Under the pieces are notes generated by a model. The model made no database searches, had not been told where the DNA came from, and was given only the letters and a program-made list of their open reading frames with translations. Shown in pieces: positions 30,531 through 61,801 of a stretch of DNA of 64,000 bases. This DNA comes from Ceratodon purpureus (Eukaryota; Streptophyta; Bryopsida; Pseudoditrichales; Ditrichaceae), in NCBI GenBank assembly GCA_014871385.1, contig CM026431.1, forward strand, positions 3,946,604 through 4,010,603, written 5' to 3'. A program made the translations under genes and the position numbers. Within the stretch, counting starts at the first letter, position 1; the number at the start of each line of letters is the position of its first letter.

Positions 30531-30603
30531 GTCCGCCATGAGGGAGGCTATGGCATGAGCGATGAGCCATGAGCAATGAGCCATGAGCGCTCATGGCTCA
30601 TGT
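30531..30603. repeat. Left target duplication and terminal inverted repeat of the 31-kb element
   Basis: The 9-mer GTCCGCCAT is followed by the terminal repeat. Within it, 30578-30603 is a perfect 26-bp palindrome with half-site ATGAGCCATGAGC, so the end can itself form a hairpin. Confidence 0.7.
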
Positions 30604-31177
30604 AATTTTTCTAATTTTAGTAAAATTTATGATTTTTTACAAGATGTAAAATGTGGATGAAATAAGACACAGTTTTTTTCATGGATGACATACATCCCAT
30701 ATTGGTGGAAGAAATTCATAGTACATAAAGCGCCAGGAAGTCATGATGAATATGGTACATAAATAATAGAATATATCAAACTTGAATCAAGAAATAAATA
30801 GAGGATGCTTATTGAATTTGCACAAATCCAATGAAAACCAAGCAATGAAAATTGCCAATATATACGAAAATGTTAAATAAAAGTAATCTAGAGATTCCAA
30901 TTTAACATCCCTAACCATAGTATTCTATAGCATACTAGTGCACCTTTGCACAAATATCTATGGGGACCCTCATAGCTGAAAGTCCTAAGTGTAACTAGAC
31001 CAATCAGCTTTGTTTAAAAACTTACAGACTTGGTTGAAAATTCAAGCATGTCAATGGATAAACTTATCCTCCACCGTACATTTCATGAATTATTTATTTA
31101 GACACAAATGAAGATGCTTGCAATGGATCCAATTCCGCTGGCCACGGCCAATAGCACTTGTCTTCATTGTGATAAAT

Positions 31178-32875
31178 TCAAGACAAGTACATGCTGAAAA
31201 AATCACCAATGGTCACTTTGTAAAGCTGATTTTTGGCAATAGATCCACGAGTGTGGATAGTGAAAACATATCCATAACTAGGATGAGGGACCTTCATTGC
31301 CTTGACGAGAAAACATTCAATTGTCTTGGATTTGTTAAACTTTGAAATACGCTCAAATGATAGCTCTGCAACATTCTTGAAATTCTTACATTCTCGCATT
31401 GATGGCATATAATCCCTAAATGACTTGAGAGGCCTAAGAACATTGTTCACATCGCTCTCACAGTATGTTGGATCACTCCATTGAAAGCGATCAAGTGAAA
31501 TACCTCCACGCATTGCCAATGTATGACCTTCATGTTTGAAACCATTGGTTTCCTTGACGTGGCTGACAAATCCTTTATCAAGCTCAAAACCAACAAACTC
31601 TAAGCCTTCAATTTCTATTTGGAATAAATTAGAACATGTCATTACTAGCCAGATCTCAGCCAAGTCAATATAATACATGATGTATTTTGAACGCGCATCC
31701 ATCACTTTCCAAATGAAGAACTCGTAAATTCAACTAGCATCAACCAAGATCTGACCAACTATATGAGTTACTTTCACCCCATTACCATTTCAAGTCGCTG
31801 CGCACAACTTCAGGACATATCTACACGGCCCTTTTTCCACTAAGGTATCCCTTGAAAAAGTTGTAGAATTGAGTCGACCGTAATGCCGCTCTACAGTAAT
31901 CGTCAAACATAGCGTCATAAACGTTTACCATATTATTGTCTAAAGCTTGGAGTCACTTGTTATGCACCGTCGTTGGCAGATTACAAGTCGGCATAGACGC
32001 TTCTCCTTGAAGAGAAAGGAACTGCAAGCAAAGAAAAATCATTAACATCTACTACAAGGAATAACGAAGAAAAATAATTAACATCTAGTACAAGGAATAG
32101 CGTCAATGTGACTATGAGAATCTTCAACTAAGTCTACAAAAATATTATCTACAAGAGTTGGTGTCTAATACATAAATAATATAAAAAATAAACACCATTG
32201 GAAAAAACATGGCTATAAAAGAGAGGCCATAAAATGCATTGCAACTTGCTAATTCCCATAAATATATGATTTTGTAAAGAACAACATGAAGCAGGGCAAA
32301 TGATGCTATGGAACCAGAAGACCTAAGTACAATTCAAGTAATGGAAGAGACACCGTTCTGTACAGAACTACCTAACTTGGCGCAATTCAAATCATAAGAT
32401 ATCAAACAATGCAATGAGAGACACCGTTCTGTACAGAACCACCTAACTTGGGGCAATTCAAATCCTAAGAAATTGAACAATGCAATAACAGGCGGGCGCA
32501 AAACCCAGCCGTTCTGTACCGAACTAACGAAATTAGGGCATAGAACATAGCCGTTCTGTAACGAACTAACAAAATTAGGGTTTGGATTATAGTCTTTTTG
32601 TAACGAACGACACAATTTTGGGAAAAATCCAAGAATAGGGAAGAAATCAATTAATTGGACAAGCAAAAGTATGCATACAAAAAAGATATCCAAGGTTTAG
32701 GATGATATACTACCTCATGAACTTTGAATGCCCCATCGGGCACCAGTCCGACTGATCTACGGGTATGATTGCTTTCCTTGTAGATCATGACATCCTTGAG
32801 ACACGGTTGTATGCGCGTGCATTGTCGACTGAAACAGTCGCCATCACACCACACATCATCAGTGTCACATATCAT
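31178..32875 (-). CDS. Possible multi-exon gene of unknown function inside the outer transposon
   Basis: Two open stretches are protein-like. 32875-32714 starts at ATG, encodes a Cys/Asp-rich segment (DDVWCDGDCFSRQC) and ends at a good donor, GAG/GTAGTA. 31702-31178 is a 174-codon frame with segments such as LEFVGFELDKGFVSHVKETN and YGYVFTIHTRGS, ending at a stop. I cannot link them with confidence, since intervening exons between 31,706 and 32,713 were not resolved, and I recognise no family. Position just inside the left end of the transposon suggests a transposon-encoded or captured gene. Confidence 0.3.
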
Positions 32876-34048
32876 TAGCGGTGATCATATTAGTGGGAGA
32901 GTTGAAGCTGTAGAACTTGCAGTTAGTGCTCCTTCCTCCTACATAGGATTGTCGTTCTTTCATCGTTGAGTGATCTCACGGCAGCAACAATATCTTGTTA
33001 CTGAGGGCCTTGATAGGGTTAGGTCGATTCTAATAAACTTCTGGTTCACAATCGACACATAATTGGAGTTGTTTCAAATGTTTTTAAGGGAATGTTCATA
33101 ATCAACCCCGACTGTACCTTCTACATTAGCACAGCTGAAATAGGACAAGCTTCCATTCTTGGAAAGGGTGTTTTGGATTCGATTGCATTGTTTGCCAGGT
33201 ATTTTGGGTCCGTCGTTTCTTTTCCGAACTGTCATATGGGCATCGCTCCCAGTCCCACACTTCACCTTGGAGACTGAACCATGTTACCACCCCAGAGATG
33301 GCCGAAAGACGCATTTAGGAGTCATTTACAAGTCATTTACAAGGACTGAAGATTGAACATGTTCAGTTGCGGCCAAACGACGGCAAGATATGATTCTGTG
33401 AAGTCTACGAGGGCTGCGATTCCAAGCTATAACTACATTCTACATCATGTAATTCCGCATTTTATAGAGAACATAAGTTTTGTTAATAAGAAGATGTATT
33501 TGACATGATTACGATCGTCTAGTTTAATTAGGGTATTTTGTGATCTTTCTATTTCACATTTCCTTGGCAAGCCAACAATCATAGATTATGTTCTTGTAAT
33601 ACTGAATAGTTCCTCTCAACGTCCGATCACCTAGATTATGATGGTATAAGAATAGTACCCCTTCAAATGGCTCAACGATGGCTGGAACACAGCGCGATGG
33701 TGCAAGAAAGGACGATTCTTCTTCCATGGGTGTGGAAAAGATGAAAGGGTTGTATGACTGCACTTTTCGAAATGTCAGAGACATATCCAACTCGCAATCG
33801 CTGCTGAAAGCTGAATCGAGCATTGACATGGTAACAGTTCAATCCAGTATTTTCAATCATACTTGGCTACACAGTCAGTTCTTGATCACGAAGGTTAAAG
33901 TTCAAGATAGAACCTCCAGCATATTAGATTAATCTGAGGATTGCAATCTCGTTTAACCTTTGGACTCGGCACAGTGCCAAACATATTCTCTTTGCAGTGA
34001 TTTTCTGAGCATGCTCTACAATCAGTTTTAAGAAAATTTTTTTAAGGG

Positions 34049-34357
34049 AATTCACTTCACTAGTGAATTTGGGGAAAATTTGGGCAAGGTCTTTGGGTCC
34101 ATTTGACATCAATGCAAGCGCTTCTCTACCCAATGACCTTCGGGACAATCTAAGAGACCAATTTGCTGCGGATAATGTGGCCAGTCCAAGAGTTAATATC
34201 GTCTCTCGGAGCAGATTAGCCACTACCTCTGGCCCTGCGGAGGATGCACACGCCTGATCAGGAAGCATTGACCACCAATGAAAGGAAGCATTGCTCCTCT
34301 GGATCTTAGTCTTAAGCTGCTGGCTCGTTTCTCTTCCCCAAATTCACTTCACTAGTG
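34049..34357. mobile_element. Small inverted-repeat element, about 300 bp
   Basis: GTGAATTTGGGGAA at 34063-34076 is inverted at 34334-34347 (TTCCCCAAATTCAC). The 17-mer AATTCACTTCACTAGTG is present directly at both borders (34049-34065 and 34341-34357), giving a likely 7-8 bp target duplication with TTCACTA. It is compatible with a hAT-type MITE; the overlap of repeat and duplication leaves the exact ends uncertain. Confidence 0.5.
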
Positions 34358-36061
34358 CGTTCACAGCCTGTATGATTCTAGGCACTGTTACTGCACTCGT
34401 CAATCAATCGTATACTAATTATGCCTATAGAAATAGCTTGACTCGGAACAAGTGCATGAAGGCATCCTATGCCTTCTCGTTGACTACCTTCTTCAAACCA
34501 TCTGCAGTGCTAGATCGAGACGGGTCCATAATATTTTGAGAAAATAGTGAAAATAATCTATGTCTTAAGAATTGCCCACTCTAAAATGAAACCATTCAAG
34601 TTTAGGATTTTATAAGATTAAAGCATACTTACGATGGTTTTCCTTTGAGGATCATTTTCTGAAATCAGTAATATCGAAGTCATAAAAAGGCATGAAGATC
34701 ACCCCTCTGTGTACCTGTTAGAGACCTGACATTTTTTTGATGTAGGTGTCATCTAGGCTGAGTTCAAATACACAATGTCATGGTGTCCAAGAATTCATTC
34801 AAGGACTTCAGGATCTGAATTGCAAAGTTCAGGGTGTTGGTATGCGAGCTAATCTATCTTATTTGATGTGGTGCTTTGGTGACTGTACATTTATAATCCT
34901 TGTGGCTGGTAGCATGTTAGATGCCACTTGCTTCAATCTTGCTGCAATTAATCATCCATTTCCACTTGAGAATTTCAAGTTGCTTCAGAGTTGGCGTATT
35001 TGGTGAGTTGCTGGTTTAAATCATTCGGGATTCTGTTGTGCTTGAGTGTTATTGGTGGTATGGAATTATGAGAAGTGCATTCAAATTTTACAAATTTCGT
35101 TCAGCTTTATCCCTTTCGTCTAGATAGATGCTGCTTGAAGTTGCTTATTTCAAACGTCAAAAGTATTGGTGAATAGAATGAGATGTTCGGAGCAGCTTCT
35201 CTTCTTGTTTTGAAATTCACTAGCAATAGGTGTTCTATAACGAACATGGTATTTAGTAGCAATTGTCTAGTTCATGGATTCTCTAAATCCAATTTGGAGC
35301 TACTTAGTTCGCTGCTCAAAAGTGAATGTTCGGCCTCAGTTCTGTGCCGAACGCCTAACATCTCTTTCTTTTTTCTTGATTCACAAGTTCTCGTATTCAC
35401 ATGCTTCTTGTCTAGATTATGAAGGGGTGACGCATTCTGTAACGAACACCATCATTGGATGCCATTCGTCCTTTCGTTATTGATAATAATTGATAGATAT
35501 GTTTGGAACTTTGGGTTTTGGGTTTTAGCTAGATTTACCTGTTCTGTACCGAACGCTGATTATTGGTCCATTGTTTGATGGATTAATTGTTTGGGTTGGA
35601 CTAAAACAAATGTGCTAACCATGTCTCAACCCTATTGCACTTTCCTCAAAGTGAGTGTTAGGGCCCTGTTCTGTACAGATCGCCTGTCATCATTCTAATT
35701 TTTGTTATGGCATGCTTCTTGAGTCCTTGTCTAGATGTTAAAGCCGCGACCCATTTTGTGACGAACAAAATCAATGGATGACATTGTTGCAGAGCATATT
35801 TACAATTTCTGTTACAGTTTTAGCATTGGATTGGATGTATATTGACTGGAATCACTTGTTCTGTACAGAATGTCCATTAAGGATCCAATTTGATCTGGAT
35901 TTGTTGATATTATTGTACTCAGTCAATGTAAATTGCTTGTCTAGCATGCGTTCTGTGACGAACTCCTTATTTTGTACAATATATTGTATACCACTGCCCA
36001 TGTTAATGACCATACATTGAACCGTGAGGGCAAGTAGTTAATAGATGATACCGTGTTCTGT

Positions 36062-36345
36062 ACCGAACACTAGTAACTTGGTGATTGATGTCTACATGGA
36101 ACTCAAGGATCAATTGTTCAAAATTAGTGGACTTATATGTGTTCGTCACCAAACGGGTGCAATTAAAGCAATTTGACGATAAAAATCTTGGTGTTTGTAC
36201 CGAACATTAGTAACTTGGTGAATGATATCTACATGGGACTCAAGGATCAATTGTTCAAAATTAGTGGACTTATATGTGTTCGTCACCAAACGGGTGCAAT
36301 CAAAGTAATTTGACGATAAAAATCTTGGTGTTTGTAGAGAACAAA
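36062..36345. repeat. Tandem duplication, period 136 bp
   Basis: Two adjacent near-identical copies start at AGTAACTTGGTGA (36072 and 36208) and share TCAAGGATCAATTGTTCAAA and GTGTTCGTCACCAAACGGG. Each copy ends with a motif copy, so the array unit itself has been duplicated. Confidence 0.85.
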
Positions 36346-36862
36346 TTTGATGGCGCAGCAAGAAGGATGAGGTGAGATGATGGATGCCTCTGCCTTGCAC
36401 GGTCAACCGAATTCAAACCATGGTAAGAGCTTTTGAGTTTAAAATTTGTATGCAGTCCTCTAATTTCTTGCCTCTACTAGCACAATTCAATTATGATATT
36501 TATCCACGTTTTGTAACAAACGACTGTCATGACTTTAACATTTACTCATTCTATACAGGTAATTGACCAACTGGACTTGGCCGTAGAAGACTACAACTGT
36601 GACAACAACTGTCCAATGACATAATGGGTAGGTTAGATATTTCAATGTTTGCATTCAAATGGCAACTTCCCATCTGTTTTGATGATTATGAACCTTATAT
36701 AAATGTGACGTATTGCAGGCTCGCAAGCTGATGATGAGCACTCCAATTATGGTGACTGTAATGAACATCAAGATATAAGTAATTTTCCTACTGGTATCCA
36801 AGGTGAACATCTACTTCAAACCTAAATGGATTCTACTCAAATTTATATGTTCTGTGACAAAC

Positions 36863-38850
36863 GCTGCATATCTGAGCATTTGGATCCACCTAAAATTTGT
36901 TACCTCCTATAGAATAAACTCTAAATGGTATCACCTGATGTGTTTATTCAGTGTCAAATGCGTAGGATGATTCAAATGAGGACTCAGGAATGGACCGGTC
37001 CCAGTTAAATGAGTAGGACAATGAACAAGACAATGGTTGCCAGAGCAATCTAGAAGTCCAAGAGTTGTAGGGAAATGTGCCTAAACCTGATGACAGAGAT
37101 GATGATGGAAATAGTGGCCCCACCCAACATGCGCACGTTGATTCCAAAGAAGAATATGAGATGATTGTGGCGCATCGCAAAACTCGTGTCAATACAAGAA
37201 GAGGCTTGAGATGTTCAAATTTGCATCTCGATACCTTCATGACAATAGATGAACATTGATTTTGATGCCCTCAAGTCTGAATTATGAGCTTATGCGGTGG
37301 CTTGAGAAACTCTTCATGTATCTTGATGGCGCAATAACAAGCTCGTCTTTTCCTATAACCTGGTTCACCTGAATTTATGAAGTAAACATTGGAATTTCAA
37401 CATTGAGTTTCCTTGGTTTTCAGCTTCGTCCATTGCACATTCAGCTGGTTAATGATATGCTTCTATGTTTGATATCACCATTCTGCAAGCCACCGTTTAA
37501 CCTTGTTATTCATCGCTCTTCTTCTCCTTGGATTCGTAGTACACATCGTCATCAAAATGATTGATACATATTCGATCCTTTGCAGGTCTTTATGCCTCAT
37601 TCAGACATTTTTATGCAAATCTGCACTTCTTGCAAAGTCCATCTCCAACGTACTCCCTTCATCTCCCAGTTGTGGCCATGGCTATTGTATTTGCTAAGCA
37701 AGAGTCACCCAAAGAAAAATTCCATGCAAGGGAACGGATTTGGTGAGGATATAATTATGTGGACAACGAAGCAGCCGAATCTAATACTAGAAGTAGAACA
37801 GTAGGCCTATTAAATCCTGAATCATCGCGAGATAGCATTATATCTTCCTAGGAAAAAAATTATAAAGTCAGTTGAATAATTCATATGCAAATGATAATAT
37901 TCTTGTGCCTTAGATCTTAGTTCTACAAATGGTTTCTCTACCTGCACACATTCATTCAAGATTCTACACGATTGAACAAACAACAAATTTAATAAACCTG
38001 GTTTTCAGCACCAAAACAGTAAAATTAAATTAGCAACCCATCACTTAGTCCAACAGCCACCAAGACTACCCTAACAACACAACATAGCTAAAACCTTAGA
38101 TTCTTCTCCACCAAACTACGAAGACAATGAATCATGCAAGGAACGACAAGTGCAGCATGGCATCTAAGGTTGACGTACCCATTACCACTACATAACACTT
38201 GGCCAAACTGTAGACTTTCCTTGCACCACCATTTGTTAGAACCCATCACCACCATTCCACTGTAGCACCCATGAAACAAGCAAAGCAATGGCAAGCCAAG
38301 GTTTGGAATAAATTTGTAGAATTTGGAATAAATTGTGTGGTGGTTTAATGTATTGACTGAAGCGGTTTCTAGCGAAACCTACAGGTGGATTACAGGAAAA
38401 CAACTACATTTCACTTTGAAAATTTGTATCTAATAATCTATGAGTACTTAAATTATAGAAAAATACGCGTTGTGTAAAAAAACTATCCTCCAATCCAAGA
38501 AAATTACTTCCCAAAAATAGAACTGCCACAAATATGCAAAAACCCTTATTTTGGTGGTTATGGGTGCTTCTACCTTATACCTTGAGCGGGATGGGCAAGT
38601 GCACTGATAGGTGCTGCAGCTGCAGCTGCACTTCAACCACGACGACCGAGTAGGAACTTCATAAGTGGATGACGATGCCCATGACGGAGGACGTTGCTAT
38701 TGTTGCTGATTGTGCTGCACCATCGCCATAACAGCTCCTGCTGCCGCCTTGATTCCACATCCCAATTGGCTTCCCTTCACTTGTAGCTTTGCTTCCTAAG
38801 AAGAACATGAACATCATAAGCTATATGACAACAGGATCTCCATCTCCATC
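36863..38850. other. Gene-free interior of the outer transposon
   Basis: Short acidic frames (for example 37077-37259, plus) lie next to splice-like sites at 36,719-36,801 and could be decayed exons, but stops interrupt them. Nothing else is supported. Confidence 0.35.
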
Positions 38851-38858
38851 TCTATGTA

Positions 38859-38880
38859 CGTGTGTGTGTGTGTGTGTGTT
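38859..38880. repeat. (TG)n microsatellite
   Basis: About 11 uninterrupted TG/GT dinucleotides in gene-free sequence. Confidence 0.95.
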
Positions 38881-39159
38881 TGTTTGAATTTCTGATTCTG
38901 TGTACATTTTTCTGTTTGTGATGTGTGGATGTGAAGGTGGTTCTGACGTTTCATGTTTTAGTGGTGATGATGTTGTTATTGACCTGTCTTATACTCGGAT
39001 GGTAATTGGCACACTGTTTGAATGGGTTTTTAATACATAGGCCACACCAAATATGTACATACAAATATCTATATGTATGTATTTATATATGTATGTATTT
39101 ATATACATATAAATACGTACATGTATGTATTTAGGTCTATATGTACATACGATCATATA

Positions 39160-39357
39160 TTCCCTCCGTCTCACAAAAAGACCATTGTTAGCTTTAAAAA
39201 TCTGTCTTGAGATAAGATCCTTGTTTCTAAATTTGGCCAACTTATTTTTAAATTTAGCCAACTTGTTTCTAAATTTGGCCATTTGTTTCTAAATTTAAAA
39301 ATATCCTTAAATCCGATATTATTAGCAAACTAAGGTCTTTTAGTGAGACGGAGGAAG
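39160..39357. mobile_element. Stowaway-like MITE, 198 bp
   Basis: Terminal repeats TTCCCTCCGTCTCAC and CTTCCTCCGTCTCAC (reverse complement of the right end) extend with AAAAGACC. TA flanks both ends (39158-39159, 39358-39359). The interior contains repeated AAATTTGGCCAACTT/AAATTTAGCCAACTT segments. It is a different family from the MITE at 26.6 kb. Confidence 0.85.
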
Positions 39358-39561
39358 TATCAAATATGAATAAATATACATCTCAAAGTATGGTATATCT
39401 CACCCTCCATGGAAAAACCAACCTGGTTAAAAATAGAAATTTGGGACCCTATCATCTAAATTATAATCTACTCGTAAAACTAAATTTCTGAATGATTTAG
39501 CAATAAAATTCAAAATTCTATTTTTAACCAGTTTGGTTTTTCTATGGAGGGTGAGATATGC

Positions 39562-39568
<7 letters not shown>

Positions 39569-39611
<43 letters not shown>
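39569..39611. repeat. (TA)n microsatellite
   Basis: About 21 uninterrupted TA repeats inside an AT-rich block that continues to about 41.7 kb. Confidence 0.95.
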
Positions 39612-39615
<4 letters not shown>

Positions 39616-40397
39616 ATACATATATATATTTATGAATAATATATATATATATATGTATTATATATATATTAAAAAAAATACATTTATATATTAAATCATT
39701 TGCATTTCATTATATATTATACTTATGATATCGAAAAATATATTTCATAATATCATTAAATTTATTTAATAACAATAATACATATGTGTAGATAAACAAA
39801 CACATATATTCAAATTTGTGCATTTATATATGATACGGTAACTTTTTAGATTTTAAAGACTTAGAAACATATATAAAATCCAATAATATAGGATTTAATA
39901 TTGTATGTAATAAATACTTGTTGTATTATCGTTGTCTTTAGAGAAAAAGGCTCTGTATAGCCTTCCAATGACAAAAACTCGGGTTGCACAAAGACAAAGA
40001 GTTCTCTTCTATATTACTACGTAATTGCATAAAAATCACTCCAAAAACGCTACCTAAAATCTCATGAGTTGAAAATTCAAATACTTTACATTGAGCCGAA
40101 AAGGCACTGATAATATTTTTGATGAACAGCCCTGCAAACAATGTAGAACATCAATGAACTTATTAATGAATATTTCTAAATTTATATATACATATATATA
40201 CATTTACATTTTTATTTATTTAGATAATTATATTTAGATTGTGTATGTACTTTTATTTGTATATACTAATATTTATATTTAAATACTAGATATACATGAT
40301 TACAAACATATTTATAATTAAATATATTAATTTATAAATTATTTAAATATAAATATCTAATTAAATCTATATATTTATATACATATGTATATGAATA

Positions 40398-40509
<112 letters not shown>

Positions 40510-40829
40510 CTCATAATATTCGTTAATTTACTACACATATTTATATAAAAAAATTTAAATCTATATATTTATATACATAAATCCTTAAAATTACGCAAAC
40601 ATTTAATATATATCTTCAAAATACATCTAAAACAATAATGCCACAAAAATTTGTAATATTCAAAAATTAAATTTTAAAAAAATTAATGAATATGGATGAG
40701 TACAATTTGTTAATGTATGATAGATATAATATTTTTATTGATGCCATAGTTTTTTATTTATGCAACTTATTTCTAATTATATATATCACATTTTGTTCTT
40801 GAGTAATGCATTCTTAAATCTAGATAGTA

Positions 40830-41006
40830 CTCCTTCTGTCTCACTAAAAAACCATTGTTTGCTAATAATAAAATATCTAAGGGTAATTCTAAATTTAGAA
40901 ACAATTTAGACAAATTTAGAAATAAGTTGCATAAATTAGAATCCACTCTCTTATTTTGAGATAGATTGTTTTACCAAACCAAGGTCTTTTAGTGAGATAG
41001 ATGGAG
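40830..41006. mobile_element. Degenerate Stowaway-like MITE, same family as 39.2 kb
   Basis: Ends CTCCTTCTGTCTCACTAAAA and, reversed, CTCCATCTATCTCACTAAAA, with interior AATTTAGAAACAA segments shared with the MITE at 39160-39357. The right TA has decayed. It is an older copy. Confidence 0.75.
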
Positions 41007-41734
41007 CATGATTTTAGGTCTTTTTTTCCATTACTCTAATTTATTATAAATGGATCATAATATTTTATTGTATTTAAATGTTCTAAATGTCAATGTTATG
41101 TTCTTCATCTATCAATTACAAAATAATATGAATATATGAGTTATATTTTATATGGTGTATATTAAATTAGCCGATAGTTTATCTATATTATAAAATTTTA
41201 AATTTGTCTTTAAATGTATCTTTTATATATTTTATTTAATATATCTTTATATAGATATGAATGTTACATATGAGTACATATTTAAATATAGACATATAGA
41301 TATATAATTTATACGCATTTATATATAGTTAAGTACATGAATGTCATATATGAAAATATATTAATATACATACATATAACATTTATATATACCCATGCAT
41401 ATGTATATATAGTTTTTAAAATATATATTTATATACATGAATATTATTATTTATACATATGCATTTGAATAAATTATTATATAATTTAATAATCACCTCG
41501 GTAATATTTGTATGTGATATTTTATTCATATCAATGTGTTATATAATTATATTACACGATACACTTTCTAAATTTATACCATTTTATATACTTAAATGCG
41601 GTGAAATTTTAAAAATGTCAAATAACAAAATGTTTGGCTATGGGAATAATTAGTCTTATAATTATTATATTCAAATACTCATCTATGTAAATTTAACTAT
41701 ATTTATCGCGGATAAATTACAGATTGTACAAGCT

Positions 41735-43469: not shown

Positions 43470-43499
43470 TTGCCACTATAAGAATCCCGCGTTTTAGGT
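43470..43499. repeat. CACTA left flank TTGC and terminal inverted repeat
   Basis: TTGC duplication at 43470-43473 followed by the 26-bp terminal repeat starting CACTATAAG. Confidence 0.9.
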
Positions 43500-45600: not shown

Positions 45601-45741
45601 ATTTGGGACTACATCGACAGCTCATACCTAGACTATTGCAAACAGTGGAGAGGGGAGTGAAATGAAGGGGGCTCTCAATATGTAATAGGAATATGAAGAC
45701 TCAATGACAGTCCTTTGACAACCAATGGGGTGGGGGGGGGG

Positions 45742-46216: not shown

Positions 46217-46222
46217 ATTAGC

Positions 46223-48149: not shown

Positions 48150-48180
<31 letters not shown>

Positions 48181-48842: not shown

Positions 48843-48879
<37 letters not shown>

Positions 48880-51625: not shown

Positions 51626-52227
51626 ATAAACTACACTACCTTAGGGTTTTAGACTCCCCCACCAAAATAATGTCGGCTCGGTACATGGGCGCGTTCCTTG
51701 TACCAAGTCCGTCATGCGGAACATTGAAGTGGTGGGACACGTGGATGAGGGATCATTGAAATTCCATCCCACAACTTTTCTGTCACAAAAGACATCCAGC
51801 GATGTCTTCTAAAACATCAATAGAGACATCTCCATGGACACACTTCTGTTCATAATGACATCCATCCAGACGTCTCTTTTGACACAGTTATGTCTGTAGG
51901 GACATCCCCTTAGACATCTCAATACACATGAAGACGTCATTGGTTACTTGTGAAACTCCAACGTGGGTCCGAGTCAAAGAAGTCGTATTCTCTGTCCTCG
52001 ACACTTCTTATCAGATATAGGCGTCTCTGTTGACATGACAATTCACATGTCAGTTGTCACAATCATGTCTATGTATATATCTGGGAATATGTCCCCTATA
52101 CAGGGCAATGTAAAGATATATATATTCTGCATTGAACTCTGCAGAACTTTAAAGCATGTGTGGTCTGATTAGGCCAATTAGTTCATGAACATACGTATTT
52201 GGCCTTACCCTGTTTCACAGCTAACGC

Positions 52228-52485
52228 ATGTTCAGCGTGTTGGATGAACAGATGCAGCCGGCGTGTCACGACACCAAGAAGGGGAAGTGTTTGTGTCCAT
52301 GTGCACGTTGTTGCATCCAGCGGTGGGGTAGTATAAGACCGCCGTGTATTTGTCCATTGCAGGTGAAGCGAACATTGGGGCTGGATTTTGCTATCCGCAA
52401 ACAACGCCTATATTGCAAGTGTCGGTGGGTGAAGGCGCGGGTCCTCCCAAGCTGGATGTGCAAGTGCAAAATCAAAACCGGTTAA
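52228..52485 (+). CDS. Small cysteine-rich ORF in the CACTA element
   Basis: The 85-codon frame starts at ATG and is rich in C-x-C pairs: KCLCPCARCC, CIC, YCKCRW and CKCKIK. Repeated CxC with basic residues suggests metal binding and perhaps DNA binding. It lies between the two main transposon genes, on the transposase strand. It could be the first exon of a spliced product, since donor-like GTTAATC or GTGAGT follow its end. Family not recognised. Confidence 0.35.
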   Translation: MFSVLDEQMQPACHDTKKGKCLCPCARCCIQRWGSIRPPCICPLQVKRTLGLDFAIRKQRLYCKCRWVKARVLPSWMCKCKIKTG

Positions 52486-52707
52486 TCTCTGGTGAGTTTC
52501 CATGACACCTATGGGTTACATGAAGTATACGTTTTGTGATGTCTTTGAAGATGTCCCTATGGACATCTTTCATGATGCTCAGACATGGTGGACAACGTGT
52601 CTTAGTCATCTTGCAAGTCCAAAGAGCGCTGACATTGAGGTAGCGATGATCTTCTTCAGCCATATCCCAACGTTACAGGGCCTGCAAGCTATTCCGCTAC
52701 TGTCAAC

Positions 52708-53049
52708 ATGGCATTGCGTGAGGAGGGCTTGTCCGATGCTGAATCGGTGGGAGAGTGCGCCGCACCGTACGAACATTATCCATTTGAAGAATACGATGTC
52801 CAGCTTGATGCGTATCTTGAGAAGCTAGCATCTCTTCATAGTGAACACATGTATTTCTACGAGCGTGGTTTATTGGATACGAAGGACTTCATGCCTGAGA
52901 CTATTGACGATGTGTACAACAAGAATATGTACAGCTTGTCTTGGTTCTATGACGGTGGTTACCCTTTTGATACATGGGAGGACAACTATGACCAGTGGCT
53001 CTATGACCAAGTTTGTATTGCCATGAGTGAGGGAAATAATGTGTTGTGA
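52708..53049 (+). CDS. Small acidic, aromatic-rich ORF in the CACTA element
   Basis: The 113-codon frame starts MALREEGLSDAESV. It is strongly acidic and rich in Tyr/Phe/Trp (EHYPFEEYDVQ, SLSWFYDGGYPFDTWEDNY). Composition is non-random, unlike the shadow frames around it. It follows the cysteine-rich ORF by about 220 bases, and the two may be exons of one gene. No family recognised. Confidence 0.4.
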   Translation: MALREEGLSDAESVGECAAPYEHYPFEEYDVQLDAYLEKLASLHSEHMYFYERGLLDTKDFMPETIDDVYNKNMYSLSWFYDGGYPFDTWEDNYDQWLYDQVCIAMSEGNNVL

Positions 53050-53238
53050 AGATATAGGTTTCTTACGTAGAGTACATGTTGAGGACTAGGGGGATTTTTG
53101 TTATTCATCCACATAGCCCATCATGTTATATTTCGATGAAGGGGAAGTGTTGGCAAATTCCAGCTGTAGTCCGCGTTTTTGTACCATGCATCTGTTTTAA
53201 ATATACAATACATTGATGTTTATAACACACATGAACAA

Positions 53239-53752
53239 TTTAAAATGAGGATGCAAGATAGGGACTATCAGTGTTCAGCTTCAACATGTCTTTCTAAACA
53301 CCTCTGCGTCACCTAAGACATGACCACAGATGTGACTTAAGAGCATATGACATTGTTTACCATGATGCCATTGCTTGCCTTTTTTTTTTTTTTTTTTTCT
53401 CTCCCACTCTCATCCCCCTTTCCCTCTTTATGTGTTACTCGTCCCCCTTCCCCTCTCCACTATCCTTGCCCATCTCAGTTTTTTGTTTGTTTGTTTTTTT
53501 TTTTTTTTTTTTTTTTTTTTTCTTCCTTCCCTCACCAACCCCCTCCCCCCTCGTACCCCCTCACACTTCCCCTTCTCTCTCCCATCTCTCCTTTTCTCTC
53601 CCACTCCCGTCTCTTCCCCTTAACGAATCTCCACTGTCCTTGCTCTTCTCGGTTTTTGTGTTTTGTGTTTTGTGTTTTTATTTTTTTTATTTTTTTTTCT
53701 TTTTGCTTCTTTGCTGATTTTCTCCTTCCCTCGCACCCCCTCACACTCACCC
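53239..53752. repeat. Right arm of the 0.5-kb inverted duplication (polypyrimidine)
   Basis: Reverse complement of 47918-48439, including the mixed segment TTTAAAATGAGGATGCAAG and a polypyrimidine stretch. After about 53,750 another shorter CT-rich stretch continues to 53,910. Together the arms can fold into a stem with a loop of about 4.8 kb. Confidence 0.9.
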
Positions 53753-54132
53753 TTCTCTCCTTTTCTCTCCCCCCTCCCGTCTCTTTCCCCTCTCGACTGT
53801 CCTTGCCCATCTCAGTTTTTGTCTCTTTGTTTGTTTTTTGTTTGTCACTCTCATTTCCGTAGAAACCCCCTCACACATCCCCCTTCTCTTCATCCTCCTC
53901 CATTTTTGCCAGATGTTGTCGCAGATAGAGATTGTGACTGAGAAGCATCAATATGCCTTCGGAAACGTCTATGTGTTTGCTAGGACATAGTAACTAACAT
54001 CACCTCAGACAACTCGACAGTGCTCACAGACACATCATTGCCTTGTCTTGCGGCTGGTATTCGTTGGGTTATTGGAGCTAATTTTGACATCTTTGCTTAC
54101 GTTGTGTCTGTGATGGTAGGAGTTCAAGTGCC

Positions 54133-57100
54133 ATGAGCGGAGACGTCCGTCAGCGCGGCGCAAGAATCCGGCATGATGCTCAGGGGCGGACATTGCGTCA
54201 CATCCCTCTCGGTGACCTCATTCTGCAAACAGAGCTACGAGTGGCAACGACGCAGAACATAACACAGTACCGATGCCCTTGCCGCAACTGTCACGGAGGT
54301 CGAAGGAGGCGAATCTCCGTCATCCGAGACCACCACGCAGCTGTGGGTAGGGACCCCTTCTTGACAAACTCCCTCATTGGCGGCGACCCACCAGAGGGCT
54401 ATCCACCGGATGGGATCTGGGTGGAAGACATTGCATACGACGACGATGTCGTTGACGATGCTCCCCAGGTTGGCAACAACGATGTTCTCCCAGACGTCGC
54501 TGAAGACGTCCCCGAACAGGATCATGTCGCTAATGACGGAACTTTGTTGGATGAGTACCACGATGTCCAGAGGCAAGTCATGGAGGCCCTCGGCCGTGGC
54601 GATGCTCTCCATAGGGATGCTGGAGTTGAGCCTAATCTTTTGGCCGAAGATGACCTCGATCATGACACTGTTGATGGACTGCGGCGTCTCTATGAGCAGG
54701 CTACAACTGCCCTGTATCGAGGATCAAAGACAAGCGTTGTGTCTGCAACCATTGTCATCATGAACATGTGTGTGGTCTTCGGTGTGAGCAACAGCTTTGC
54801 CACGGAATTGTTGCGGTACTTGGCGGAGGACCTTCTTCCAGCAGGCAATAAGCTCCCAAACAGTCATTATGCTGCTGCAAAGTCAATTCGCAAATTGGGG
54901 CTTGAGTACAACAACATCCATGCATGCCCTGATGGTTGTGTACTATATGAAGGTGAACACGCGGACTTGCACGCATGTCCAAAGTGTTCAAAATCCCGAT
55001 GGTTAGAGGGTACTGATTCTATCCCCTCAAAGGTGATCCGCCACTTCCCCCTTATACCCCGCTTGAAACGGATGTGGCGCTCACCAGAGATTGCTAGCAT
55101 GTTGACGGGTCACACGAAGCATGTCAGCGAAGACGGCATCATGCGGTCTGTAGTTGACAGCCCCGCATGGAAACACATCAACACAGAGGACGTCTTCGAC
55201 AACTTCGGAGCAGACACACGGAACATGCGTATGGCTTTAGCGACAGACGGTGTCAATCCTTTTAAGTTAAACAACACAAACTGGTCCACGTGGCCAGTGC
55301 TCATTTTGCTATACAATTTGGAGCCATGGTTTGTGACGAAGAAGTTCTTCATTTCGTTGTGCATATTGATCTCAGGGAAGCGATCACCAACTGCAGCAAA
55401 CATTGGCGTGTTCATTCGACCATTGTTGAATGAGTTGCATCAGCTCTGGCAAGGTGTCCCAGCACTTGATTTCACTCAGCCCATAGGGTCTCGACGCTTC
55501 AATCTCCGAGGTTTGCTCATGTGGACTATCTCAGATTTTCCGGCATATGGGCTCATCTCAGGTTTATGCTGTAAGGGATATAAGGGATGTCCTTCTTGCG
55601 GCCCAGAAACAGATGCTAGATCTGCAAAGACAGGAGATCTGCGTCCAGATCGTACGACTCGTGGCTCCAAGATTGTGTTTGGGGGTACACGTCGTTATCT
55701 TCCCCGTCACCATCCATATCGGCGAAACACGCGGTTCAATGGCAACCGCGAGACACGGACAGCGCCTACTATCATGTCAGGATTAGACGTCATTAGGTAT
55801 GCTGCGTGGCGGCAGTCATACCTAGACCTTGGTGGCAGGGAAGGAGGCCCAAGTGACCCTGTGCATAGCACGGGCGTTAAGCGGCTAAGCGTGTTCTTTG
55901 AACTCCCTTATTGGCAGGTCAGTGGAGAATGACTGCTCTACTTGAATGTTTTCCTAAGTACAACAACGTTGTTGCAGACAGTGTTTACATTGTCGCGTTT
56001 CCAGTAGATGTCTTTGTGGACATTCGGATGTCTCAGAGGACGTTTATTTTGACAAGCACTGAAGATGTGCTCACTGTCGACACTGGTTGGCAACATGTAG
56101 TCCTTCTATTGACTTTGGATGTGGTTGCTAACAAATGAAGTGGGCATCTTAACAGCATCTAAAGATTCGACACGTCCTAGACGTCATGCACTGCGAGAAG
56201 AACCTATGCGAGAACATTCTAAAGACTCTATTTGGAATGAATGATAGTCCTGGAAGTCGCCAAGATGTGGAGGACTTGAACATACGAGAAGAATTATGGT
56301 TGCAACCTCCACAACGCCGAGGAGACGAGTACTACATGCCGCAAGCCCCATACATCTTGAAGCCCGAGGAGAAGCGAGAATTTGTGAACATAGTGTCCAG
56401 TATCCGCACTCCAACCAATTACGTGGGGGCAATTCACAAACGATTGGCGGATGGGAAATTGCAATACATGAAGACTCACGACTATCATGTCCTCATGCAA
56501 CAGGTACGCTATTGATTTCTGCACATGTGGAAGTCTTGCTGGAGACAAGTTTGTAGACCAATTCTGTCAAGGACGTATTCCCAAACGTTGTCACGTTTAC
56601 TGAAGGACATCCTACAGAACGTCCTTCTGTATGCCTACACAGTGCTGTTGAGTACGACATTGTAATGTTCCGGTAGACATGGTTGATGTTCCTGAGGACA
56701 TATATAGCAGTAGGTGGCACACATACGTAGGACTGCTAGGTTTCAATTGTTCCTACTTCTTTCCTTGTAACAGTTTAACATGTGATGTTTCCATGTTGTC
56801 CATCTTGTAGATACTCCCTGTGGCTGTCCGTAACTTGTTGGGCGAAGAGGTGCGCATAGCCATCATCAAAATGTGCCGAGTATTTCAGCGTATTTGTGAG
56901 AAAGAGGTACGAGCAGACAGCAGTGACGCGCTCATGCGAGATGTGATCATGGCATCCTGCGTGCTGGAGAAGGAGTTTCCTCCCACATTTTTAAATGTGA
57001 TGACACATCTCCCCGTGCATCTCGTGGAGCAATTGTTCATATGTGGGCCAGTCCATTGCAGGTGGATGTATCCAATTGAGAGGTACATGAAGACGCTGAA

Positions 57101-58510
57101 AGATTATGTTAGGACACAGGCACATCCAGAGGGAAGCATCGCAGAAGGGTATCGTCTGGAAGACACACTTGGCTTTTGCACAGAGTACATGAAGCGACAT
57201 CGCGCAACAACACACCGTGTTTGGGACCCTGCTGAAGATGCCACCATGAATGACGAGATCTTGCGTGATAATGAAAACAGCAAGCGCAGATTGTCTGATG
57301 AGGTACGGGGCTATGCACATGCCTTCGTCATCGACAACGCTCCATGCTTAGAACCATGGCGAGAGTGAGCCCCGAAACCTATCACCCACCCATCTAAGAC
57401 GCCTTCATAACCGTGTTCAGGGCAGTGATTCAGTGAAATGTGTAGACGTTTGCATGTCCCCTAAAATGTCTTTTAAAACATCTCCCAAAACATCCTCTTG
57501 TTTTTTTTAAATTGGAATATGTCAATGCAGACGTCATTAGCTACAGCGCACGAGACTGTTAGATGTCCTCTTGGGCGTCAAATTTAACAAACATGTAGTT
57601 AGATGTGTTGTTTCTATTCATGCCGCCGTCTCATTGTTTGACAGCGGTGTCTTGTCTTGTTTACAGGGAGTATATGGCTGCAAAGGGACGTCGCTGGGAG
57701 GAGCGTGAGGCATTTCGAGTACAGTCAAGACGCCATCGTCCTTCGAGACCAGTCTCGTATCCACCCGAGCTGTCAGATCTGCCTCGTTTTTCAGAATGGC
57801 TGAGAGCACGGGTGGCGGAAGCTCAAGCGGCCGGTGATGAATTGCAGGAAGACGTGGTACAGTACTCCTCCCCCCCAGAGAGGTATGCTACCCCCCATCG
57901 GCTACTCAAGGCATTTGGAATGCGCTTGCGCCCTCGCACAGCAGAGGGAGGACTTGTCACTCGTGACTCGTGTGTAGTTGCAGCATATACGCAGCAACTT
58001 CGTTGGGGGATTCGCAACGCGAGGCCCATTGACCGCACCTCCGAGTATGTTGGGTATATCGAGGAGATTCTCGAATTGGATTACCGCAATCACTGCACCA
58101 CAGTGCTGCTTTGTGATTGGGTTAAAGCCTCCCGTGATGCGCGCGTCCCCAACGTTGAACGTGACAAGTACGGATTTAGCGTGGCGAACTTCAACCACAT
58201 GGACGGCAGAGTGCACGCGGACTCTTTTGCGTTTCCGTTGCATTGTCAACAAGTCTTTTTTGTTGATGACCCCACGAGGCGCGGGTGGAAGGTAATTTGT
58301 CGTACAGACGTTAGGGGTCGCCGTACAGCAATACAACATCAACATCCAGTCGCCAACTTAGTTGTTGTGGGCAATGACGACGACTTTGAGGGGTTGCAGC
58401 CGCCCCTCATGGAGACAGAGCCAACTCGCCACGCTGCCCCCGTGGGAGGGTCCTACGTTACAGCCGCAACAGACACAAACGGCGTTGCTGAAATTGAAGA
58501 GGAAGAATGA
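54133..58510 (+). CDS. CACTA transposase, TNP2/TNPD type, four exons, 1,176 aa
   Basis: Exons 54133-55917, 56156-56503, 56811-57364 and 57667-58510 total 3,531 nt in one uninterrupted frame. The N-terminal YRCPCRNC block resembles the transposase-associated zinc domain. The Transposase_21 core follows: LATDGVNPFKLNN, WSTWPVLILLYNLEPW, FNLRGLLMWTISDFPAYG, then LDVMHCEKNLCENILKTLFG across intron 1. DUF4218 comes next (HLPVHLVEQL, GPVHCRWMYPIERYMKTLK, PEGSIAEGY). DUF4216 (YVGYIEEILELDYRNH, QQVFFVDDPTRRGWKV) closes the protein, with an acidic tail. The acidic residues in ATDG, LDVMH and PIERYM are candidates for the DDE triad of this superfamily. Acts in the nucleus, cutting at the CACTA ends. 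Exon joins are by phase; domain order matches full-length family members. Confidence 0.92.
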
Positions 58511-60057
58511 CTACTAAATCTCTAGTTGCTAACATTGCTTGCATTAGCAGTGTCCCGAACTACATGTGTATGTCCTTGTTTTATGTCATAGGAGACATTG
58601 GCAATGTCCGCAGCATCTTCAAAAACATCCTCTGCCGCATCTGAGATGTAACGGTTGTTTTTTGCTTGCATATACATAGGGACATACGCAGACGTCTCCA
58701 AGGATGTCCATAGGGATGTCTTAGACGACATCCTCTTGTTCATGTGGGCCACGTTGAATCGGATGTTTGCGGTGACGCTTGCATGGACACAGTCTGTCAT
58801 GTTAGGCTGTCTAACGTGGATTTTTCTGTGTTATTTACAAAAATCGCTGCATATTAAAGAATGTATGTTACGTTCATGGATCATTGATGTTTTTACTTTA
58901 TAACATCATTTTTCTATATTTTTAAAACCCATTTTTGTCCAAACTTCACATTTTTGTCTAATTAACAACAATATTAAATTAATAATTACTAATTAGTTTT
59001 AAAAAAATATTTTTCAGTTTGTAGTATATACTTTTAGTCTGAACATATCTCTATTCTAGGAAATGATTTTCAAAATTTTATTGAAACAATCATTTAATAT
59101 GTCGTCATCAAATTCGTTTTAAAAACAAATCACACATGTCAAAAATTAGGATTTCACATTACAATGAACGTAGTAATTCATTTTCCATTGTAAATTAATA
59201 ATTATCAATTATTTTTAATAATCATGTGGACTATTCCATAATATTTAATCTCAGCATATTACATTTTCTATTTATAAAATCAATTCAAAGAAGTTCAGAG
59301 AAATAATCACACCATATTTGTAATATCTTGATATTAAAATTCAGTTTAAAAAATGAAGAACATAGATAAGAAATTCTAATACCACGATACAATGAACGTA
59401 ATTATAACCCTTTTTCTCATTGTAAACTGATATTTATCAACTATTTTTAATAATTATATTTTCAGTTCATAATAATTACTCTCAATATATTACATTTTCC
59501 ATATAAAATTTTAATTTAAAGAAATTTAGAAAAATAATCACACCACATTTATCATTTTATAATATAATAAGTTGCTTTAAAAACCAATCACATAGATCAA
59601 AAATATTGACATTATAATTAATTGAACGTAACAAGCCATTTGCCATCCCTAGTCATTTTTTAAATTTCATTTACAGAGAAAAAATAAAAACAAACCCTTT
59701 AATTCCTCTCGGCCTTTTTTGTGCTCCCTTTGCTGACCCTGCCCTTCTTCTGGTTTTCTTCACTGCGGGCAGGAAGTTACTCCACAGTCCAGTAACTTTG
59801 CGCCCAGTTTACCGTCCGTCAAAACGAGGATGTTGCTGACGTGGCTCTTTTGCGTCGACGAGGACGTCCTCTGCCATGTCTCCGTAGACACGGACGTTAA
59901 TGCAGACGTCTTCACGTTTTTAGGCTAGCGTGCCAATGTCTAACGATGATTAACCCAGTTTATCTCAAAAAACTAGTCAACGTCCAAACGTTACCCAAGA
60001 CATGAATGACAAACACAAAGACATGACAAAAACATGACTATGTTTTTCGAGAGCGTC
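58511..60057. other. CACTA right subterminal region
   Basis: 58,511-58,760 and 59,820-60,020 carry GACGTC/GACATCC-type motifs. Between them (about 58,900-59,650) is an AT-rich stretch with three diverged near-repeats of about 240 bp, each with ACAATGAACGTA or ATTGAACGTA, CCATTGTAAA-like and TTTTTAATAAT blocks. No gene. Confidence 0.5.
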
Positions 60058-60087
60058 ACCTAAAACGCGGGATTCTTATAGTGTTGC
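60058..60087. repeat. CACTA right terminal inverted repeat and flank TTGC
   Basis: The inverse of the left terminal repeat ends CTTATAGTG at 60083, followed by TTGC at 60084-60087. Confidence 0.9.
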
Positions 60088-60224
60088 GCTTCCTCTTGGG
60101 CAGTTGACCTTGAAATGGTTGCGTTTCAAAGTAATATTCTGAAGATTCAAAGATTCATATGTCTTGTTAAAGTTTCAGATGCAGTTAGAAGCAGTAGAGT
60201 TAATGCAAACGAAACAAATTGTGA

Positions 60225-61154
60225 TTATCTATATGATGTCATTAGATAGAAATTTAGATGGTTTTTTCTATATACCGACGTTTTGTCGAGGCCGAAACTC
60301 CTCATCCAATTATCTATGAACTTCTCCTGACATTCTCTATCGGCACATTGGTCTTCTAGTATGCTTTGCATGACCACGCACCACGGGTGGTATGTGCATT
60401 GGCATAGTGCAACTATAATGTCCATGTGAGGGAAATTGGAATTACACAATGCACATGGTTTAACTGTCACCAGGAATCTGCTCCAACTCAATTGATAATC
60501 TTCGGTATGTTGACTTGCGCGCAAGGTAAAGGGAATCTTGAGTCTCTTGGCCATCTTCACGAATTTTTCTCTCAATCGATCAGATTTTTCTTGAAGGTCA
60601 TGTATTACAGATTGAAGTCGCTGGAGCTCCTCCATTGCTTCAAATATCTCACCTTTCATATCAATCAAGGCTATCTCCTTTCTCTTAATCCTATACTTCA
60701 GATTCACAATTCTGCCTTCCTCCTTGATCCTTTCTTCCACATGTTGTCCACTCTCCACGATAGTTTTTAGATTAACCTCCGAACCCTGCAACTGTCCTCG
60801 CAGCCTAGATATCTATATCTTGATTTGCTCTTCCTTGACTCCACTGGCTGGATTCTTCGGCGATGACATCAGCTTACTAATAAAAACATGTCGATCGCTA
60901 TATTCGGCCTCATTCTTGTTGTATTGGAGTTCTGATTTTGCTAACTCTCCCTCAACTTTTGCCTTTACCAATTGATAGTAGGAAGTTTTGGACTCTTTAC
61001 CTCTATACTTTATCACTGACTCCTTCTTTTTTCCATTTCTTTTTACTCTCCATCTCTTCGAAGCATATTGGGCCCAATTCATTGGGTGGCCGTGGTAAAC
61101 CTTGGACACTATAGCTCTAGCTAAACTCTCTGAGATACACTCATTTTTTGGCAT
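60225..61154 (-). pseudogene. Coiled-coil protein with Cys/His (RING-like) C-terminus, one in-frame stop
   Basis: Two frames, 61154-60813 and 60812-60225, are the same reading frame split by a single TAG at 60815-60813 (KEEQIKI-stop-ISRLRGQLQGSE). Read through, the protein is about 309 aa. It has a basic Trp/Arg segment (MNWAQYASKRWRVKRNG), a long coiled coil over the middle, and a metal-binding-like end CALCNSNF, CQCTYHPWCVV, CADREC. It lies in the outer transposon between the CACTA insertion and the right terminal repeat. Upstream exons are likely, as the frame stays open past the first Met. I do not recognise the family. It could be the outer element's own protein, now damaged. Confidence 0.45.
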
Positions 61155-61717
61155 CTTATTACACTGGTAAATGGCAGGATACAATTCCTCTACACACTGT
61201 TAACTTTATCAGACTTAGCTCCTTGATAGTAATATCCTTTCTTCTTTTGTCTCTCACCGAACACCGAACATTCTTACCAACTCATCATTTTGCACATGGT
61301 TGCAATCTCTTGAAGGATCCAACTCCCAGTTGGGCAAAGAAACCTTTGATGCAAACCACCGCTCCTTCCCTCTCTCCACTTTACTTCTCTCCATCACTCA
61401 CAATCTATAGATTCACTTGCCTCACCTCAGATTTGGTATCTTAGACCACAAACTTTCCTAAACTCTAACTGACTGCCATTCAGAAATCCGTGTTTGAACC
61501 TAATCTCCCTGGCCATCGCTTGCAAGTAGTTTTGGAGGTTTCATTAGTCGTTTTTTTTAAACTTGAGCTTTCCAATCCTAATGATTTAATTTGACACGTT
61601 GGGGTACCAATCATCATTTCATTTGAAGTATGTTTTGTTCATTTGCAAATTATTCATTCGTTTAAGATGAGTTCATCTTCATTGATGGATGAAATGCACA
61701 TACTAAATAAAGTAAAT

Positions 61718-61801
61718 CATCCGCTCACGGCTCATGGAATCTCGCTCACGGCACATGGCTCATGGCTCATCGCTCATGTCCTAGCATTCCCCGTCCGCCA
61801 T
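61718..61801. repeat. Right terminal inverted repeat and target duplication of the 31-kb element
   Basis: Tandem GCTCAT(G/C)G-type repeats (GGCTCATGGCTCATCGCTCATG) end at CATTCCCC, followed by the second GTCCGCCAT copy at 61793-61801. In reverse complement they match the left end. Confidence 0.7.

Follow-up and report, generated by a model that had tools for sequence, protein, structure and literature searches.

A giant DNA transposon family in a moss and a defective member that hosts a CACTA element

Mutator-like elements (MULEs) generate target-site duplications of 8-11 bp (PMC6446971). In the brown alga Ectocarpus, the giant 21.5-kb transposon Sola1-1_Ec32 has a gene combining ParB-like and N4/N6 DNA-methyltransferase parts that runs antisense to the transposase, and a role for such ParB-methyltransferase proteins in algal transposons is only suggested (PMC12477816). 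In Arabidopsis VANDAL21, introns and the non-coding stretches upstream contain a short, element-specific motif, some of it arranged in tandem, that is sparse elsewhere; a protein made by the element binds this motif and relieves silencing (PMC5735166). Here we document DNA transposons of about 27 kb with open copies in a probable land plant, a moss, together with defective relatives that appear to have been moved in trans.

In the window, by which we mean the whole 64,000-bp stretch of DNA that was analysed, the outer element spans positions 30540-61792 (31,253 bp; ends read directly and measured). It is bracketed by a perfect duplication of GTCCGCCAT, at 30531..30539 on the left and 61793..61801 on the right (features cited without a strand have none). 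The ends form imperfect inverted repeats of about 50 bp, with 42 of 50 positions identical between the first and last 50 bases. The left repeat, of the ATGAGC type, occupies 30540..30589 on the plus strand and has its start in common with the paired copies described below, while the right repeat, read and measured, occupies 61743..61792 on the minus strand. A preliminary description had proposed an outer transposon with a 9-bp duplication and inverted ends of about 49 bp, judged unlikely to arise by chance, and had suggested a genome-wide search with the terminal bases; the observation held up. Further copies were found, including three close copies and a series of paired ends, and they start and stop at exactly the same bases as the window element. 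Because other copies share exactly these terminal bases, the ends are not a product of chance. The outer element is confirmed as a real transposon and a single unit.

Three dispersed sister copies, on contigs C4, C13 and C5, are 92.5-99.7% identical to the window element by block (92.5-98.9% over 30540..43473, left of the CACTA insert, and 97.6-99.7% over 60084..61792, to its right). Their ends coincide with those of the window element. None contains the 16.6-kb CACTA insert, and each is bounded by its own target duplication (10, 10 and 11 bp). Pairing 30 left-end with 29 right-end loci (10 of the latter stayed unpaired, and L024 was excluded because its match stops short of the terminus) gave 19 end pairs, 15 of which have an exact duplication (8 of 9 bp, 6 of 10 bp and 1 of 11 bp), 2 a duplication with one mismatch, and 2 none. 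Eight end pairs are 26.5-28.1 kb in size.

The nested CACTA element, encoding Transposase_21, DUF4218 and DUF4216, occupies 43474..60083 on the plus strand (16,610 bp) and has TTGC on each side, at 43470..43473 and 60084..60087 (both read and measured). The insertion site is empty in the three close copies, which bears out the earlier view of the outer transposon as host and rules out the CACTA element as an integral piece of it. The length of about 14.6 kb predicted for the element without its insert is matched by the close copy on C4, at 14,655 bp. The duplication at the insert reads 4 bp; the usual CACTA target duplication is 3 bp.

The gene content of the giant members is taken from a single copy, read end to end. 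This copy carries a SWIM-like transposase, a coiled-coil/RING-like gene (an ORF of 381 aa) and, antisense to the transposase, ParB-like and N6/N4-methyltransferase ORFs. Exon 1 of the transposase gave 84 matches in the genome, grouped into 54 places with secondary matches merged by hand. The best stretch was stop-free at 31 of the 54 places, several of them partial, and 4 of the 31 have a stop in a second stretch among the matches listed. For the transposase 3' exon, dN/dS relative to the giant copy was 0.00-0.15 in the 11 other aligned stop-free copies. The sample was the 30 left-end loci minus 7 that were partial, one with no row (L052) and the giant copy itself (L065), leaving 21; stops are absent from 11 of these, including one that has a one-base gap, and present in the other 10. 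The accessory genes have a recurrent arrangement. At 48 of the 54 places the coiled-coil/RING-like gene lies upstream on the transposase strand within 75 kb, and at 41 of these within 30 kb (60 of 110 matches used). The methyltransferase exon lies on the opposite strand and the expected side within 60 kb, also at 48 of the 54 places, with none of the 58 matches examined (of 150) misplaced.

With its two exons joined, the methyltransferase matches positions 2-217 of the 221 in PF01555 (E = 6.7e-8). The motifs read DTPF and DLSASTG, in place of the usual DPPY and FxGxG, and the protein may therefore bind without catalysing. The ParB-like ORF lies on the methyltransferase strand about 4 kb upstream and is a candidate part of one gene with it; it has a sub-threshold match to DndB (E = 0.093) and, by eye, a DGNHR motif, and yielded nothing useful against NCBIfam, PHROGs or PDB. 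A search of viral contigs for the transposase gave six pattern matches and no relative. Among the open-access papers searched we found no description of the family, although one could exist elsewhere.

Several remnants of these genes were found in the window copy. A disrupted transposase 3' exon with the SWIM-like end lies at 30988..32045 on the minus strand (tblastn pieces 59-70% identical to the giant-copy exon); it is partial in the alignment. On the plus strand is a remnant of the ParB-like ORF at 36939..37211 (45% by tblastn against giant-copy positions 9669-10679, and present in the three sisters too), followed by one of the methyltransferase first exon (64% identical, 37214-37297) and one of an adjacent ORF (40-47%, 37561-37846). 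The coiled-coil/RING-like gene, at 60282..61397 on the minus strand, is 63% identical to the 381-aa ORF and is interrupted by two TGA, one TAG and three TAA codons. Exon 1 of the transposase, the catalytic one, gave no tblastn match at E≤1e-3 in the window copy or the three sisters, and one in-frame stop is common to all four defective copies and missing from the giant copy read. Since these copies lack the catalytic exon and have that stop in common, they were probably moved in trans. Pfam gave no match in the interior (30540-43472) for two of the three minus-strand frames with stops written as X. The remaining frames were covered by selected ORFs, among which the SWIM- and RING-like remnants gave no Pfam match.

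The window copy is not a simple deletion of the giant copy read. From about 32.6 to 43.4 kb the interior is mostly without a blastn match to that copy beyond short and AT-rich pieces. Identity to it in the end blocks is no more than 73-76%, except for the last 300 bp (90%); because of this we assign the window copy to a related subfamily. We consider it very probable that the window element is a defective member, about 14 kb long, of a giant family of about 27 kb, and that it was moved in trans. The family would be of the cut-and-paste type, and the transposase of intact members would act on the shared ends of defective copies; one such non-autonomous member later received the 16.6-kb CACTA element. 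The suggestion of a non-autonomous or poorly described family is in keeping with the missing exon and with the absence of a description from the papers searched. No captured host gene was found among the window ORFs scanned; the remnants match the family's own genes, and a Pack-MULE reading is unsupported.

A search of 362 Mb gave 345 occurrences of the palindrome GTTCKGTACMGAAC and 3 of the reversed control. Among the matches listed, 47 of 50 sites are in family element loci and 3 outside; this placement covers 50 of the 345 sites, with copies lacking both ends padded by 2-20 kb, and the widest pad (C2:9751436) and the fragment at C1:15541091 were chosen after the palindrome sites had been seen. 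In the giant copy all 22 sites lie outside ORFs. With up to one mismatch, the outer element in the window has 12 sites and the CACTA insert none. Four of the 12 (32355, 32426, 32511 and 32553) are instances of GTTCNGTACNGAAC, at up to one mismatch, in two short tandem arrays at 32346..32608. Five (35339, 35541, 35668, 35858 and 36055) lie at 35339..36332, and three (41799, 41863 and 42327) at 41799..42340, the last within a 106-bp tandem array. Site 36055 borders a 137-bp tandem duplication. The 29 right-end loci contain no site. Outside the 14 bp, the 34 sites of the window and giant copies show weak base preferences only. The palindrome is also present in loci of a second group, whose coiled-coil protein is about 50% identical. 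A feature resembling that of VANC, a short motif concentrated in the non-coding parts of the element, is present among the matches listed.

The preliminary description had itself raised the possibility that each ATGAGC-type end marks a different, unrelated small element; the 9-bp match would then be coincidental. The ends are made of a simple heptamer repeat, which could originate repeatedly. However, in 16 of the 18 end pairs other than that of the window both ends are correctly oriented and carry their own 9-11-bp duplication (14 exact, 2 with one mismatch), and the three close copies align across the entire window element. These paired copies elsewhere in the genome refute the reading, whose residual probability we regard as negligible; there is one transposon. 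As to its superfamily, the transposase is likely, although unproven, to be a divergent Mutator-type enzyme. The earlier assignment to Mutator had been made on duplication length, and here the 9-, 10- and 11-bp duplications do fit the range of MULEs. The C-terminus shows, on inspection by eye, a CxC...CxH pattern, a finger type frequent among the elements tabulated in PMC6446971; the Pfam SWIM model scores it below cut-off (E = 0.62). A match of residues 679-729 to the IS256 model, far below cut-off at E = 0.033, points weakly the same way. What the Mutator assignment does not have is a Pfam MULE match, as the remark that no MULE transposase was visible had anticipated: PF10551 gave none at E≤1 for exon 1 of the giant copy and, with at least 93 matches in the genome (best 150 of 384 candidates scored), none by eye at the 54 transposase places. 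NCBIfam, PHROGs and PDB likewise gave no convincing match for the transposase. These negative results favour a superfamily other than Mutator with duplications of about equal length, which we nevertheless consider unlikely.

The palindrome GTTCKGTACMGAAC is a candidate target of an element-encoded self-recognition system, an idea we put forward tentatively. The dispersed sites would be where an element-encoded protein recognises element DNA, the recogniser would most plausibly be the ParB-like/methyltransferase product, and recognition would serve to mark or un-silence the DNA of the element. Defective copies could still be recognised, because they keep about a dozen sites. The fuller proposal, that this protein binds a private 14-bp palindrome and marks or shields the whole family, defective members too, from silencing, is possible but falls well short of an even chance. 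Nearer to even, although still below it, is binding by the transposase or a host factor, unrelated to the ParB-like/methyltransferase protein: sites persist in defective copies with mere scraps of the methyltransferase gene, and several of those in the giant copy lie in or adjoin the transposase gene. Against the transposase, the sites are dispersed over the element and missing from all 29 right-end loci, unlike sites for an end-binding enzyme. For a host factor, sites would also be expected in other parts of the genome, whereas 47 of the 50 among the matches listed are in elements. The palindromes might instead be functionless, passive repeats spread by tandem duplication. Tandem arrays hold 6 of the 12 window sites and 6 of the 22 in the giant copy, by overlap of coordinates; however, the remaining sites have differing surroundings, with weak preferences beyond the 14 bp among the 34 sites, and the palindrome recurs in second-group loci despite the divergence of their coiled-coil protein. 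We regard the passive reading as improbable.

Among known systems, the moss family resembles MULEs (MuDR, Jittery and VANDAL) in its 9-11-bp duplications, its terminal inverted repeats of tens of bp and its putative SWIM-like finger (PMC6446971). It differs in its size of about 27 kb with accessory genes, and in a transposase that Pfam MULE does not recognise. Like Pack-MULEs, which are non-autonomous elements moved in trans (PMC12477816), the window copy would depend on a transposase supplied elsewhere; unlike them, it holds remnants of its own family's genes, with no captured host gene in the ORFs scanned. With Sola1-1_Ec32 the family shares an N6/N4-methyltransferase opposite the transposase (48 of 54 places; PF01555 E = 6.7e-8), although that element belongs to the Sola-1 superfamily and a brown alga, and the moss family to a probable land plant. 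In Sola1-1_Ec32 the ParB-like domain is within the methyltransferase gene; the moss ParB-like ORF (DndB E = 0.093, below cut-off) is a candidate part of one gene with the methyltransferase, about 4 kb upstream on its strand. The moss family adds the coiled-coil/RING-like gene and the palindrome, neither of which is mentioned in the section of PMC12477816 on Sola1-1_Ec32. A palindrome that spans two protein-divergent groups would offer a concrete target for the role only suggested in algae (PMC12477816). With VANDAL21/VANC the likeness is a short, element-specific motif concentrated in non-coding parts and partly in tandem; the VANDAL21 motif is the 9-base, non-palindromic YAGTATTAY, with VANC as its partner (PMC5735166), whereas that of the moss is a 14-bp palindrome with a candidate binding protein only. 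If the proposal is true, the giant transposons of the moss, with their own epigenetic self-recognition, would be a counterpart of VANC evolved from prokaryote-type parts.

The outer element was measured at window positions 30540–61792 (31,253 bp). Direct reading of its borders gave GTCCGCCAT followed by GAGGGAGGCTATGGCATGAGC on the left, and GCTCATGTCCTAGCATTCCCC followed by GTCCGCCAT on the right, and its first and last 50 bases form inverted repeats identical at 42 of 50 positions. This bears out the 31-kb transposon with inverted ends and identical flanks proposed in a preliminary description made from the window sequence alone. The nesting of a CACTA element within it (window 43474–60083, 16.6 kb), also proposed there, was confirmed, the site being empty in three dispersed close copies. 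The insert has CACTATAAGAATCCCGC ends, the outermost 17 bases of which are perfect inverted repeats, and codes for Transposase_21, DUF4218 and DUF4216. It is flanked on each side by TTGC, a 4-bp repeat; CACTA target duplications are usually 3 bp. Purine-rich tandem repeats with a period of ~163 lie inside it (window 47169–49134 and 53239–53855), with inverted partial copies ~5–6 kb away (longer arms 85–97%). Just left of the outer element is a UDP-glycosyltransferase fragment (window 29666–30094; PF00201, E 5.7e-11).

The search of the genome (362.5 Mb, 151 contigs) with the element's ends, which the preliminary description had asked for, revealed many further copies. The right 643 bases gave at least 46 matches (40 scored of 138 candidates), and the left 661 bases at least 68 (40 scored of 96 candidates), the last 27 of which are 26–27 bp long, on the opposite strand and confined to a part of the left end that is self-complementary. 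When the right-end query was extended by 100 outside bases, matches in other copies started at the terminus or within 7 bases of it; one fetched locus, L024, came without a terminus in this search. The outside flanks differ among right-end copies, except that loci L007 and L008, on different contigs, share an identical 40-bp flank and thus represent a duplicated segment, not separate insertions. Among 30 fetched left ends, partners were found for 19 of the 29 right-end loci. Exact target duplications flank 15 of these pairs (9 bp in eight, 10 bp in six and 11 bp in one); in two others the duplication has one mismatch, and the remaining two, in which the left match starts inside the element and the terminus was extrapolated, have none. 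The three close copies, on contigs C4, C13 and C5 (14,655, 13,784 and 14,053 bp), cover the whole of window 30540–61792 apart from the CACTA insert and are 92.5–99.7% identical to the window copy, block by block. A segment of ~0.9 kb (window 37843–38760) is common to the window and C4 copies and missing from the C13 copy.

Eight of the 19 end pairs span 26.5–28.1 kb. We read one giant copy in full (C4:7494669–7521496; target duplication TGTTTGATA). On its minus strand are an open transposase exon 1 of 837 aa, a 3' exon with a SWIM-like CxC...CxH pattern near its end (CTCLDF...ILCKHLYF, by eye) and, near the right end, a 381-aa coiled-coil/RING-like ORF, the coiled coil having weak SMC-type matches and the RING-like cysteines being seen by eye. 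The plus strand carries a ParB-like ORF, with a DGNHR motif seen by eye and a sub-threshold match to DndB (E 0.093), and a methyltransferase whose two joined exons match positions 2–217 of 221 of PF01555 N6_N4_Mtase (E 6.7e-8). Its motifs, DTPF and DLSASTG, depart from the canonical methyltransferase forms, so that catalysis appears uncertain.

Transposase exon 1 had at least 84 matches in the genome (54 scored of 2946 candidates), which were grouped by hand into 54 places. Most matches fall into two groups, at 85–100% and ~77–84% identity, with fragments at 67–95%. The best stretch is free of stops at 31 of the 54 places; four of these have a stop in a second listed stretch, and some are partial. 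For the 3' exon, dN/dS was 0.00–0.15 in 11 other stop-free aligned copies and 0.06–0.26 in 10 copies with stops, all non-independent comparisons with the giant copy as reference. At 48 of the 54 places the coiled-coil/RING-like gene is found upstream of the transposase, on its strand and no more than 75 kb away (no more than 30 kb at 41 places). The methyltransferase exon, too, is in its expected position at 48 places, on the opposite strand and no more than 60 kb away (no more than 16 kb at 43). None of the 58 methyltransferase exon matches used stood in the wrong place beside a transposase, and 10 were away from any; among the PF01555 matches listed (150 scored of 773 candidates), 29 of 32 were inside family loci. 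At least 90 more distant relatives of the exon (32–38% identity) lie mostly outside family loci, which shows that the methyltransferase family extends beyond the giant transposon lineage; some are in ORFs of 450–594 aa, and at least two are within family spans (C2:17197191 and C8:7151641). Distant relatives of the coiled-coil/RING-like gene (~35% identity) occur near contig ends (C9:41854, C4:6340, C3:216462, C32:8865 and others), possibly marking further giant families near chromosome ends.

The outer element is a defective member of this giant lineage. Using tblastn with the giant-copy genes, we found remnants in the giant copy's order: the transposase 3' exon (window 30988–32045), the ParB-like ORF (36939–37211), the first methyltransferase exon (37214–37297), a neighboring ORF (37561–37846) and the coiled-coil/RING-like gene (60282–61397). 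The three close copies hold the same remnants; tblastn gave no match to transposase exon 1 in any of the four, and all four carry, in the RING-like gene, a common in-frame stop that is missing from the giant copy. Most of the window copy's interior has no blastn match to the giant copy, and its end blocks are 73–76% identical (90% in the last 300 bp), which argues against its having arisen from that copy by deletion alone; judged from these alignments, it is a defective member of a related subfamily. That four defective copies occupy four sites, each with a duplication of its own, suggests that the enzyme was made elsewhere, and we infer that they were mobilized in trans.

The preliminary description saw no MULE transposase and suspected that the element could be non-autonomous; its observation and interpretation stand as a whole. 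Its suggestion of Mutator was based on duplication length. Mutator-like elements have target duplications of 8–11 bp, inverted repeats of 14–500 bp and, frequently, SWIM fingers (PMC6446971); the giant family resembles them in its 9–11-bp duplications and terminal inverted repeats. The pattern seen by eye in the 3' exon is a candidate SWIM finger, for which Pfam SWIM scored E 0.62, below cut-off. The Pfam MULE domain (PF10551) had no match in the giant-copy exon 1 and, among the genome matches listed (93 from 150 scored of 384 candidates), none by eye at the 54 transposase places; the best profile match was IS256 (E 0.033, below cut-off). We therefore treat the family as Mutator-like in its working, without classing it as Mutator. 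By analogy with known transposons of such anatomy, a DDE-type transposase would recognize and cut the ends.

Family members also share a 14-bp palindrome, GTTCNGTACNGAAC. Allowing one mismatch, the outer element has 12 sites, the giant copy 22 and each close copy 11–12; the left flank (30.5 kb) has a single one, and the CACTA insert and the other flanks examined have none. Among perfect palindromes of its layout in both elements, it ranks below only two alternating AT forms. The left-end loci, 30 in number, contain 35 sites inside the element and none outside; 29 right-end loci have none on either side of the terminus. Genome-wide, the count of exact matches to GTTCKGTACMGAAC is 345, versus 3 for the reversed control. 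Among the first 50 exact sites, which come from C1 and a portion of C2, 47 fall within element loci, with both groups represented and with the intervals of some loci padded for site placement, two of them after the sites were seen. The other three (C1:22352351, C1:25037701 and C1:25043057) perhaps mark unrecognized relatives. All 22 giant-copy sites are outside the listed ORFs, and by coordinate overlap 6 of these 22 and 6 of the 12 window sites are in tandem arrays.

What is new here is the gene set inside a Mutator-like element of a land plant, together with an element-associated palindrome. The layout of the palindrome resembles that of the VANC21 motif of Arabidopsis VANDAL21, which is short and element-specific and occurs in introns, upstream regions and tandem arrays (PMC5735166). 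The ParB-like and methyltransferase ORFs are reminiscent of the accessory gene carried by Ectocarpus Sola1-1, which was suggested to bind and mark its own transposon (PMC12477816). Joining these two parallels, we propose the palindrome as a putative target of the element-encoded protein.
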